A stretch of 64,000 bases of DNA from Leifsonia sp. EB41 (lineage in GTDB: Bacteria; Actinomycetota; Actinomycetes; Actinomycetales; Microbacteriaceae), in assembly GCF_041262565.1 (NCBI RefSeq), contig NZ_JBGCCJ010000001.1, positions 186,001-250,000 of the forward strand. The letters are read 5' to 3'. The first letter of the stretch is position 1, and each line of letters opens with the position of its first letter. Under the pieces are notes generated by a model. That model searched no databases. It had not been told where the DNA came from and saw only the letters and a list, made by a program, of their open reading frames with translations. The position numbers were made by a program, and so were the translations under genes. Shown here piece by piece: positions 28,214 to 33,134 of this stretch.

Positions 28214-29218
28214 ATGACCCACCCCACCCTGCAGCAGTCCCACGGGCCGCAGTACACCCGCATCCTCTCCATCGGCGCCGCCCGCGGCGACCTGGTGGTG
28301 CCCAACGACGACCTGGTCGGGCCGATCGACTCGTCCGACGAGTGGATCCGGCAGCGCACCGGCATCATCACCCGCACCCGCGCCAGCCACGACGTGTTCG
28401 CCGTCGACCTCGCCACCGAGGCGTCGAAGGAGGCGATCGAGAAGTCCGGCGTCGACCCGAAGCTGATCGACGCGGTGATCGTCGCGACGATCTCCAATCC
28501 GCAGCAGACGCCCTCCGTGGCCGCCGTGCTCGCCGACCGCGTCGGCGCCAACCCGGCCGCGGCCTACGACATGAACGCGGCCTGTGCCGGCTACGCCTAC
28601 GCCGTCGCCCAGGCCGACGCGCTCATCCGCACCGGGCAGGCGCACTACGCGCTCGTCGTCGGCGCCGAGAAGCTCTCCGATGTGGTCGACCCGACCGACC
28701 GGACCATCTCGTTCCTGCTCGGTGACGGCGCGGGCGCCGTGGTCATCGGCCCGAGCGAGTACCCCGGCATCGCCAAGACGGTGTGGGGCTCGGACGGCTC
28801 CAAGGCCGGCGCGGTCGGGATGGACGGCACGCTCACCGCCTTCCGCGACGGCGAGACCCCGTGGCCGACCCTGCGCCAGGACGGCCAGACCGTCTTCCGC
28901 TGGGCCGTCTGGGAGATGGCGAAGGTCGCCAAGCAGGCCCTCGACGCCGCCGGCGTCACCCCGGACCAGCTCGCGGCGTTCATCCCGCATCAGGCGAACA
29001 TGCGCATCGTCGACGAGTTCGCCAAGCAGCTCAAGCTGCCGGAGACGGTCGCGATCGCGCGTGACATCGAGACGACGGGCAACACGTCGGCCGCCTCGAT
29101 CCCGCTCGCCACGCACCGGCTCCTGCAGGAGCACCCCGAACTGTCCGGCGGCCTCGCGTTGCAGATCGGCTTCGGCGCCGGTCTGGTATTCGGCGCGCAG
29201 GTCGTCGTGCTCCCCTAG
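28214..29218 (+). CDS. fabH: Beta-ketoacyl-ACP synthase III
   Basis: A 334-residue KAS III that starts chain building by condensing acyl-CoA with malonyl-ACP. The catalytic triad is visible: Cys124 in YDMNAACAGYAYA, His in FIPHQANMRI and Asn in TTGNTSAASIPLA. SSDEWIRQRTGIITR is the N-terminal hallmark. It is 14 bp downstream of fabD, with AGGAGGA before the ATG. In this lineage it probably prefers branched acyl-CoA primers; that is inferred. Confidence 0.96.
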   Translation: MTHPTLQQSHGPQYTRILSIGAARGDLVVPNDDLVGPIDSSDEWIRQRTGIITRTRASHDVFAVDLATEASKEAIEKSGVDPKLIDAVIVATISNPQQTPSVAAVLADRVGANPAAAYDMNAACAGYAYAVAQADALIRTGQAHYALVVGAEKLSDVVDPTDRTISFLLGDGAGAVVIGPSEYPGIAKTVWGSDGSKAGAVGMDGTLTAFRDGETPWPTLRQDGQTVFRWAVWEMAKVAKQALDAAGVTPDQLAAFIPHQANMRIVDEFAKQLKLPETVAIARDIETTGNTSAASIPLATHRLLQEHPELSGGLALQIGFGAGLVFGAQVVVLP

Positions 29219-29272
29219 GGCCTGCCCTAGACTGATCAACGGTCAAAACGACACCCCCTCAAGGAGAAAACA

Positions 29273-29524
29273 ATGGCATTGTCCACCGAAGAAGTTCTTG
29301 CCGGCCTGGCCGAGCTCATCAACGACGAGACCGGCATCGCGACCGACACGGTTGAGCTGGACAAGTCGTTCACCGACGACCTCGACATCGACTCGATCTC
29401 GATGATGACCATCGTGGTCAACGCCGAGGACAAGTTCGATGTGAAGATCCCGGACGAAGAGGTCAAGAACCTGAAGACCGTCGGTGACGCTGTCGAGTTC
29501 ATCGTCAAGGCGCAGGACGCCTAA
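29273..29524 (+). CDS. acpP: Acyl carrier protein
   Basis: An 83-residue acidic four-helix carrier. DDLDIDSISMMTIVVNAEDK contains the phosphopantetheine attachment Ser41; the residue after Ser is Ile where Leu is usual. It carries fatty-acid intermediates for FabD, FabH and FabF. AAGGAG precedes the ATG. A GC-rich hairpin follows the gene. Confidence 0.96.
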   Translation: MALSTEEVLAGLAELINDETGIATDTVELDKSFTDDLDIDSISMMTIVVNAEDKFDVKIPDEEVKNLKTVGDAVEFIVKAQDA

Positions 29525-29547
29525 GCACCGCACGAAGAAACTTCCTA

Positions 29548-29584
29548 CGCGCGGGCGGGCCTCCCCCGAGGTTCCGCCCGCGCG
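29548..29584 (+). terminator. GC-rich hairpin between acpP and fabF
   Basis: CGCGCGGGCGG pairs with 29574-29584, with an inner GCCTC/GAGG stem. It has no T-tract. It may partly terminate or stabilise the acpP transcript, raising AcpP relative to FabF. Confidence 0.5.
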
Positions 29585-29639
29585 GGGAGCAGCGCGCTGC
29601 GCGTTGCACCGTTGTTCCTAACTACACGGAGTTGCCGTT

Positions 29640-30875
29640 ATGACCAAGAAGATCGTCGTCACCGGCGTGGGCGCATCCTCCCCGCTCGGTGGCACCGCCC
29701 CCGAGAGCTGGGCCGGCCTGCTGGCCGGGAAGTCCGGCGCCCGCAGCCTCACCCACGACTGGGTGGCCGAGCTGGAGCTGCCCGTCACCTTCGCCGCTGA
29801 GGCGCTCGTGCGGCCCGACACCATCCTCGACCGGCCGACGGCCAAGCGCCTCGACCCGTCCAGCCAGTTCGCGCTGGTCTCGGCGATGGAGGCCTGGGCC
29901 GACGCCGGCTCCCCCGAGGTCGCCCCCGAGCGCCTCGGCGTCGACTACGCCACCGGCATCGGCGGCGTGTGGACCCTCCTCGACGCGTGGGACACCCTGC
30001 GCGAGCGCGGCCCCCGCCGCGTCCTGCCGATGACGGTTCCGATGCTGATGCCCAACGCCGCCTCCGCCGCGGTGTCCATGCACTTCGAGGCGCGCGCGTT
30101 CGCCCGCACCGTCGCCTCTGCCTGCGCGTCGAGCACCGAGTCGCTCGTGAACGCGTACGAGCACCTCCAGGCCGGACTCGCCGATGTCGTCATCGCCGGC
30201 GGCACCGAGTCCGCCATCCATCCGATCACCGTCGCCTCGTTCGCGTCGATGCAGGCGCTGTCGCGCCGCAACGACGACCCGGCGACCGCCTCCCGCCCGT
30301 ACAGCGTCGACCGCGACGGCTTCGTCATGGGCGAGGGCGCGGCCAGCCTGGTGCTGGAGACCGAGGAGCACGCGCTCGCCCGCGGCGCCCGCATCTACGC
30401 GGAGATCGTCGGCGGCGGCGTGACGGCCGACTCGTACCACATCACCGCGAACGACCCGGAGGGCCGCGGGGCCATCCGTGCACTGCGGCTCGCCCTCGAG
30501 AAGGCGGGCGCCTCGCCCGACGAGGTGACCCACATCAACGCGCACGCCACCAGCACCCCGGTCGGCGACCCGGCCGAGTACGTCGCGCTGCGCGAGGTGT
30601 TCGGCGAGCGGGTGCATGACATCCCGGTGTCGGCCACGAAGGCGTCGACCGGTCACCTGCTCGGCGGCACCGGCGCGCTGGAGGCCGTCTTCACGATCTT
30701 CGCGCTGCGCGACCGCGTCGCCCCGCCGACGATCAACATCACGGAGCAGGACCCGGCGATCCCGCTGAAGGTCTCCGGCGAGCCGCAGCCCCTCGGTGAC
30801 GGCCCGCAGCTCGCGATCAGCAACTCGTTCGGCTTCGGCGGCCACAACGCCGTCGTGGCGATCCGCTCGGTCTGA
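29640..30875 (+). CDS. fabF: Beta-ketoacyl-ACP synthase II
   Basis: A 411-residue KAS II elongation enzyme. KIVVTGVGASSPLGGTAPES is the N-terminus, the active-site Cys lies in TVASACASSTESLV, and the two His are in INAHATSTPVGD and KASTGHLLGGTGALE. FGFGGHNAVV ends the protein. It is separated from acpP by 115 bp, including the hairpin, and ends at a strong terminator. Confidence 0.96.
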   Translation: MTKKIVVTGVGASSPLGGTAPESWAGLLAGKSGARSLTHDWVAELELPVTFAAEALVRPDTILDRPTAKRLDPSSQFALVSAMEAWADAGSPEVAPERLGVDYATGIGGVWTLLDAWDTLRERGPRRVLPMTVPMLMPNAASAAVSMHFEARAFARTVASACASSTESLVNAYEHLQAGLADVVIAGGTESAIHPITVASFASMQALSRRNDDPATASRPYSVDRDGFVMGEGAASLVLETEEHALARGARIYAEIVGGGVTADSYHITANDPEGRGAIRALRLALEKAGASPDEVTHINAHATSTPVGDPAEYVALREVFGERVHDIPVSATKASTGHLLGGTGALEAVFTIFALRDRVAPPTINITEQDPAIPLKVSGEPQPLGDGPQLAISNSFGFGGHNAVVAIRSV

Positions 30876-30885
30876 GCACGAACGT

Positions 30886-30921
30886 GAAGAAGGCCCCGGT
30901 CGGATGACCGGGGCCTTCTTC
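30886..30921. terminator. Strong terminator after fabF
   Basis: A perfect 16-bp stem (GAAGAAGGCCCCGGTC and complement) with a 4-nt loop lies 11 bp after the fabF stop. The A- and T-rich stem ends would suit termination from both sides, including the convergent DUF3145 gene. Confidence 0.85.
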
Positions 30922-30969
30922 TGTTCACCGCGTGCGGGCGGCTGAGCCTGGCCCGTCGCGGGAGTCCTG

Positions 30970-31474
30970 CTAGCCGACCTTGTGCAGCCAGATCACCGAG
31001 GGTGTCGTCGTGGGCGCGTCGGAACGGCTCCAGCTCGTCATCCCACGCCTGGCCGAGCGCGAGCCGCAGCTCGCGGTGCAGTTCGAGCGAGTTGGAGCCG
31101 GCTACCTCCATCGCGTACCGGATGCGGTCCTCCGGCACCACGGTGTTGCCCGCAGTGTCGGTCTGGACGAAGAAGATGCCGAGATCGGGCGTGTGCATCC
31201 AGCGGCCGCCGTCGGTGCCGAGGCCGGCGTCCTCCGTCACCTCGAAGCGGAGGTGCTCCCAGCCGCGCAGGGCTGTCGCCAGGCGCGCTCCGGTGCCCTG
31301 GGGGCCGTCCCAGAAGAACTCGGTGCGCTGGGCGCCCTTCAGCACCGGCTGCGTCTCCCAGGTGAAGTTGACGGCGCGACCGAGAGCGCGTCCTGCCGCC
31401 CACTCGATGTGAGGGCAGAGCGCGCCGGGAGAGGAGTGCACGTAGAGCACTCCTCGAGCTGCGTGAGCCGTCAT
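30970..31474 (-). CDS. DUF3145 family protein with C-terminal frameshift
   Basis: An actinobacterial protein of unknown function that is usually the neighbour of fabF. GVLYVHSSPGALCPHIEWAA, WETQPVLKGAQRTEFFWDGP and WMHTPDLGIFFVQTD are family segments. The frame reads on past ELEPFRRAHDDT without a family end, but the neighbouring frame from 30999 gives SVIWLHKVG and a TAG at 30970, matching the expected C-terminus. A one-base insertion or two-base deletion near 31000 explains this. If real, the product gains an unrelated tail running opposite fabF as far as 30653. GAAGGAGG precedes the ATG. Confidence 0.8.
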
Positions 31475-31628
31475 GGTTTTCCTCCTTCGTCGGTACGTCT
31501 TCCCCTACGACCGCGAACGAGTGCCATGACTTCTATGAAGTTGACTACCGCGATTATGCCGGAGAACGCGCCCGAGTTACAAGATTGTGATTCGGCGATT
31601 CCTGCGTGCCACACGGCAGCGAGCGGAA

Positions 31629-31644
31629 TAGCATACCGGGTATG
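31629..31644 (+). promoter_or_regulatory. padR promoter: TAGCAT -10 box and CATACC-N-GGTATG operator
   Basis: TAGCAT (31629-31634) lies 7 nt upstream of the ATG at 31642. The perfect palindrome at 31632-31644 overlaps the -10, the start site and the start codon itself, as expected for autorepression of a leaderless gene. Confidence 0.6.
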
Positions 31645-32208
31645 TCGGTTCAGTATGGTTTCCTCGCGGTGCTGACCCAGGGCCCCGCTTACGGCTCCCA
31701 GCTCCAGAACGAGTTCCTCCTGCGCGCGGCCAACCGCCGCACGCTCAACGCCGGGCAGGTCTACTCCACGCTCGACCGGATGACCGAGCAGGGGCTGATC
31801 GAGTCGGCGGGTGAGACCGATGACGGTCTCCCGCTCTACCGGCTCACGGACACGGGAGCCGAGGAGGCCACGACGTGGCTGACCGCCGGCCCGCGGGACG
31901 TGCGTCCGGACTGGGACGAGATGCAGGACCAGGTGCTGGTCGCCGCATCGCTCGACGGCGCGGACGCGGCGGTGGTCGTCGCGGACTATCGGGCAGCATT
32001 CGCCGAGCGCATCCGGGAGCTGACGCACGACGCGGACTCGCGGGCGGTGCTCGCCGCCAACCGAGCCGCCGAGCTCGGCGCGCGCGCCGCGATCGAGTGG
32101 CTGGACGAGGTCGCCAAGGCCCTCGCCGCGCACCCCGGCGCGCTGGTGCAGCCGCGCTGCCCCGAGCGCCCCCGCCGCGGCCGCAAGCCCGCCGCGGCCC
32201 TCGACTGA
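31642..32208 (+). CDS. PadR family transcriptional regulator
   Basis: A 188-residue PadR-type winged-helix protein. QYGFLAVLTQGPAYGSQLQN opens the DNA-binding domain, and NAGQVYSTLDRMTEQGLIES is the recognition and wing segment. The helical C-terminal half (~100-175) would dimerise or bind ligand. I chose ATG 31642 over GTG 31606 because of the -10 box and palindrome right upstream. The usual target, an adjacent ABC exporter, is absent here, so the target is unknown. Confidence 0.88.
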   Translation: MSVQYGFLAVLTQGPAYGSQLQNEFLLRAANRRTLNAGQVYSTLDRMTEQGLIESAGETDDGLPLYRLTDTGAEEATTWLTAGPRDVRPDWDEMQDQVLVAASLDGADAAVVVADYRAAFAERIRELTHDADSRAVLAANRAAELGARAAIEWLDEVAKALAAHPGALVQPRCPERPRRGRKPAAALD

Positions 32209-32225
32209 CGCGTCTCCCTCACGCC

Positions 32226-32280
32226 GAAGGGCACGTAAACGCCCCTACAACGCGGTTTTAGGGGCGTTTACGTGCCCTTC
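32226..32280. terminator. 22-bp perfect inverted repeat (terminator or dispersed palindrome)
   Basis: Arms at 32226-32247 and 32259-32280 are perfect complements (core GGGCACGTAAACGCCCCTA) around an 11-nt loop. It lies between the convergent padR and DUF1684 genes. Its length and lower GC content than local coding DNA leave open that it is a dispersed repeat element. Confidence 0.6.
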
Positions 32281-32291
32281 GACCACTGGGG

Positions 32292-33134
32292 TCAGTGGAG
32301 GAGGGCGCCGTCCTTGTTCAGGACGTTCTTCTCGCCGGCCTCGATGGGGACCGCGAAGCGGTTCTGCGCAGGAGGCAGCGGGCAGTTGAAGTTGTAGCTG
32401 AACGCGCACGGCGGCAGAACGGCGAGGTTGAAGTCGAGCGTCACCGTGCCGTCCTCGTTCGGGACGACGAAGAGGAAGCGGCCGACCGAGTAGGTGCTGT
32501 CGCCGTTCGTGGTGTCCGAGAACACGAGCTGCAGCGCGCGACCCGCCTTGAACGCGGCGAGGTTGTAGTCGACGCCGTCCTTGCTGAAGGTGATCTCGCC
32601 CGGGATGACCATGTCCCTGGTCGCGCCGTCGTCCTTGAGGTGCTCGAAGCCGACCGTCTTGCCGCCCTCGATCGGCGAGAACGTCGCGGTGATGATCCAC
32701 TCGGGGCTGAACGGGAAGGCGTCGATCGAGCCGAAGTTCTGGATGTCCTCGGACTGCGCATCCCACACCCGCAGCGCGTACTCGCCCTGCTCGTTCGCGA
32801 TGACGAAGCCGGTGACGGTGTCGCTGAAGCGGACGGCGCCCGGGTTCGGGTCGTCCTTGCCGCGCACGATCGCGGAGCCGTCGACCAGCACCTCGTCCAC
32901 GAAGACGTTGTCCGTGGCGACCGCGGTGACCTTCAGGCCGGACTGGCCCGCCGGCAGCGGCGACCAGAGTCCGGGAACGCCCCAGACCGGCTGCTCGGAG
33001 TCAGGCTCACCGGTGATCCACTGCGTGTTCACGAGCGCCAGGTTGCCCTGCGGGGCCGTGACGGCCTGCTCGCGGCGGGAGTGGTAGCGCGCGAGGACGG
33101 CGTCGGGGTCGGCGAGGGCTGCGGTGTCGGTCAT
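32292..33134 (-). CDS. DUF1684 family protein
   Basis: A 280-residue cytosolic protein of the DUF1684 family. GNLALVNTQWITGEP opens the beta-rich domain, and the C-terminal VLPPCAFSYNFNCPLPPAQN motif, with two cysteines and the family NRFAVPIEAGEK, is diagnostic. The function is unknown; the family is widespread in actinobacteria. I prefer ATG 33134, which has AGAGG at 9 nt, over ATG 33143. Confidence 0.87.
   Translation of the reverse strand: MTDTAALADPDAVLARYHSRREQAVTAPQGNLALVNTQWITGEPDSEQPVWGVPGLWSPLPAGQSGLKVTAVATDNVFVDEVLVDGSAIVRGKDDPNPGAVRFSDTVTGFVIANEQGEYALRVWDAQSEDIQNFGSIDAFPFSPEWIITATFSPIEGGKTVGFEHLKDDGATRDMVIPGEITFSKDGVDYNLAAFKAGRALQLVFSDTTNGDSTYSVGRFLFVVPNEDGTVTLDFNLAVLPPCAFSYNFNCPLPPAQNRFAVPIEAGEKNVLNKDGALLH

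Follow-up and report, generated by a model that had tools for sequence, protein, structure and literature searches.

Reading the minus strand of a 64,000-nucleotide stretch of the Leifsonia sp. EB41 genome (hereafter the window; positions 186,001-250,000 of a 4.16-Mb single-contig genome), we met a DUF3145 gene whose frame slips within its last codons, and asked whether this frameshift belongs to the living strain or to its published sequence. The gene begins with an ATG at 31474, with GAAGGAGG ahead of it, and, if left uncorrected, remains open for 273 codons to 30653. Its protein is a clear DUF3145 member, matching PF11343 over residues 9-158 with an E-value of 9.8e-64 and a score of 214.1 bits against a curated cut-off of 25. 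Of the 156 profile positions the match covers 1-149, and an intact relative's protein covers them all (1-156); the complete family C-terminus is absent from the window's open frame, and the remainder lies in the next one.

An earlier note on this DNA had placed a frameshift in the last codons of the gene, and we traced it to a single base. At 31000-31002 the minus strand carries three consecutive C (plus-strand GGG), one of which is surplus and changes the frame; we compared this run with the corresponding loci of all 27 other genomes of the genus, and one relative (L013) has two C in an otherwise identical stretch. The surplus C is the sole difference that has to be undone to regain the family ending. 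As the note had described, the neighbouring frame reads SVIWLHKVG and then stops, at a TAG occupying 30972-30970, and the family form of the gene thus extends from 31474 to 30970 with one extra base inside. These nine residues match the commonest ending of the family exactly (it is identical in 18 of 110 loci), so the restored ending is not a product of chance. In an alignment of 37 proteins, drawn from one set of 80 DUF3145 loci, V160, H164 and the C-terminal G167 do not vary, and W162 and L163 hardly vary. What the shifted frame encodes instead (30653-30999, minus strand) is an unrelated tail, some 115 residues long, that passes through the terminator region and lies opposite the end of fabF, again as had been described.

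A comparison with close relatives, which the note had put forward as a check, gave a uniform answer: among 110 DUF3145 loci read to the stop codon, only that of the window's genome is shifted, and all 109 others (102 distinct records, as seven records occur in both locus sets) finish in the family frame, 160-168 residues from the start of the match, and none carries the long tail. All 27 other genomes of the genus that were examined are among those in frame. Each of the 28 genus genomes, the window's included, has one DUF3145 match, and a search of the window's genome for a second, intact copy returned this one match only. The six nearest genus members are 96-98% identical over 158 residues, and among named strains the closest genes are those of Leifsonia sp. 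Leaf336 (97%) and L. shinshuensis DP-L11 (96%). Downstream of the slip the window's gene shows no residue change in the family frame. Its family-frame stop is TAG, while all 27 other genus genomes use TGA. That the stop has been kept in place despite this change, and that the residues past the slip are unaltered, suggests from sequence comparison that until very recently the family frame was the one in use. For the same reasons the shift, judged in this way, must be either very recent or not real. The kept stop and the unaltered residues fit a sequence error and a very young mutation alike, and do not discriminate between the two.

The surroundings of the gene are those of its family. The adjacent fabF gene (29640-30875, plus strand; a beta-ketoacyl synthase with PF00109 and PF02801) faces DUF3145 convergently in 105 of the 110 loci, the window's genome included; in the remaining five, a fabF match was not found in the flanking DNA examined. 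Nearly all of the 110 loci come from Microbacteriaceae, so the pairing that the note had called conserved in actinobacteria is seen here mainly within this family. Between the two genes lies a perfect 16-bp hairpin (36 bases, 30886-30921), probably a shared terminator, which sits within the uncorrected DUF3145 frame. A stem of at least 12 bp occurs at this site in 27 of 30 loci (the window's included) compared with 1 of 150 shuffled 320-base stretches, and the hairpin's strength corresponds to a z of -6.27. A scan of 30600-31700 for terminators with a T-run found none, although the hairpin is strong. The three loci without a strong hairpin after DUF3145 are L018 and L025, from genomes of 2.7 and 2.6 Mb, and L030; L025 is likewise one in whose flanks no fabF match was found. 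On the other side, a gene for a PadR-type regulator (PF03551, 31606-32208) stands head to head with DUF3145 and is followed by a DUF1684 gene (PF07920, 32292-33143).

Searches for a function of the protein gave little. An NCBIfam search with the DUF3145 protein assigned no family. A structure predicted for the intact Leaf336 protein is of moderate confidence (mean pLDDT 79.5), with the last strand (residues 160-163) in blocks averaging 62-65, and comparison of this model with the PDB returned no match at E <= 0.001 (best 0.0082), so the structure pointed to no function. Sequence matches in the PDB were weak (best E 0.029), and we took them as chance. The passages naming DUF3145 that we read in the literature do not treat its function. 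We take Rv2239c to be a DUF3145 protein.

As one surplus base may arise in a strain or in its assembly, we surveyed the same genome (G000) and its relatives for similar breaks. A first survey flagged 27 of 172 genes in G000, 30 of 206 in G024, 25 of 211 in G020 and 21 of 207 in G027, and was noisy because many ORFs were spurious or began too far upstream. With two other genomes required to be in frame, 23, 20, 7 and 9 stretches remained, respectively, and adding a bias at codon position 3 left 4, 2, 2 and 1. Three of the four stretches in G000 were then dropped, as two recur at the same place in G020 and one, 18 bases long, lies close to the start of an ORF. Over the first 400 kb, DUF3145 was thus the sole clear break confined to the window's genome (160 genes with a clear coding pattern, 192 kb); among the relatives, two stretches were left in G024 and one weak one in G027, and G020 had none peculiar to itself.

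We then widened the survey to 800 kb, pairwise and with G024 only, comparing 389 of 524 G024 ORFs with G000 (459 kb) and, in reverse, 397 of 523. This extension gave four more clear single-base breaks in the window's genome, and three of the seven G000 rows were discarded for being located at ORF starts. The reverse direction yielded eight rows (seven genes), of which one was a one-base loss in G024 and one a gene fusion in G000; the other five genes were set aside as ORF-start or messy stretches. The pairwise survey failed to list DUF3145 itself, and therefore overlooks certain short shifts at the ends of genes. In all, about 800 kb of the window's genome compared with relatives contained five single-base frame breaks besides DUF3145. 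The G024 gene that is broken through the loss of one base is 639 nt long (on G024:C1, aligned to about 91.6-92.2 kb of G000:C1), and such breaks are accordingly not confined to the window's genome.

Four of these breaks are one-base gains that leave a gene in two pieces meeting in different frames. They lie outside the window, at 435513-436305, 535927-537223, 549013-551260 and 801517-804337 of G000:C1, and NCBIfam names the genes sufC, aroC, a RelA/SpoT family member (rel) and FtsK; of the four, only the FtsK match scores below its best model's curated cut-off. A short G/C run has grown by one base in sufC, aroC and rel, as in DUF3145, but not in ftsK; four of the six breaks are thus of this kind. 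All 27 other genus genomes have an unbroken sufC and an unbroken rel. For aroC and ftsK this holds in 26 of 27: aroC is in two pieces near the gene start in G005, and ftsK in two pieces near the gene end in G026. One in-frame TGA was also seen within the aroC piece of G008 and one within the ftsK piece of G011. In the remaining case, the loss of one base merges an EIIA-man/HPr gene (dhaM-like, PTS-type) and an M17 aminopeptidase gene into one (G000:C1 680432-682693, also outside the window); none of the 27 other genus genomes covers the fused query in one piece.

We consider it very probable that the DUF3145 frameshift is a one-base insertion error, of sequencing or assembly, in the genome consensus. 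Recent mutation, programmed shifting and sequencing error had all been left open in the earlier note; we favour the last, given five other single-base breaks, four of them in core genes. For DUF3145 and the other breaks alike, we infer error from two observations, that the surplus base is unique to this genome and that core genes are broken. The similar one-base slips in sufC, aroC, rel and ftsK, together with the fusion, are what favour a consensus error. The genes sufC, ftsK and aroC are generally required for growth, presumably in this strain too, and a strain in which all three are broken is therefore implausible. The argument depends on the identity of the broken genes more than on their number: the counts for these 800 kb, six breaks in the window's genome and a single confirmed one in G024, do not by themselves differ significantly (one-sided p 0.06). 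Other observations also speak against an error. The run comprises just three C. Within the first 400 kb, one clear break stands against zero to two stretches in the relatives, which is no excess and implies that the error rate is not extreme. Relatives are also broken in places (one gene in G024, aroC in G005, ftsK in G026). Nevertheless, occasional one-base assembly errors would account for all six breaks together, and the living strain would most likely make an ordinary 167-residue DUF3145 protein ending in SVIWLHKVG.

Alternatively, the insertion may be real, a very recent single-base event in the sequenced strain. The surplus base is, after all, present in the sequence as given, and relatives, too, show occasional breaks. 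The residues lost would be nearly or fully invariant ones, and the consequences for the product can be pictured. Since the hairpin precedes the shifted-frame stop, a message ending at the hairpin would carry no stop codon, and its product would be tagged by tmRNA and degraded; the genome does have a tmRNA gene (one match above the cut-off). With read-through of the hairpin, the protein would instead bear the unrelated tail. We regard a real insertion as improbable, however, as the gene is intact in all 27 other genus genomes, and joint loss of sufC, aroC, rel and ftsK through similar one-base breaks would be unlikely in a living strain. The fuller scenario, in which a strain-specific insertion yields a stopless message before the hairpin and tmRNA tagging removes the product once it is made, would hold only if the insertion is real, and we think it quite unlikely. 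We likewise consider it unlikely, and unproved, that the living strain lacks these terminal residues.

Programmed +1 ribosomal frameshifting, in which one base is skipped at ACC-CTC and translation finishes in the family frame, would yield a product with the normal ending, but we rejected this proposal as hardly credible, since no other DUF3145 locus read is shifted, the codons at the site are ordinary, and an Rfam search of 29000-33000 returned zero family matches.

A consensus error in DUF3145 thus remains our preferred reading, and it bears on how this assembly should be used. Because core genes carry similar one-base breaks, its apparent frameshifts and fused genes are suspect until checked against the reads, and DUF3145 here is best annotated as an ordinary gene that probably contains a sequence error.

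These conclusions can be set beside three known systems. The +1 frameshift site of prfB has a stop codon at the site. The DUF3145 locus resembles it in that skipping one base would bring translation back into the family frame, but differs in having no stop codon there and in not being conserved among relatives. The likeness to the DUF3145 family (PF11343) of Microbacteriaceae extends to sequence, start, length, convergent fabF and hairpin; the one difference is the surplus base, which hides the last nine residues here and in none of the 109 other loci. Finally, the locus and the other breaks resemble residual single-base consensus errors of assemblies in being isolated gains or losses of one base, within a single assembly, in genes that are otherwise conserved.
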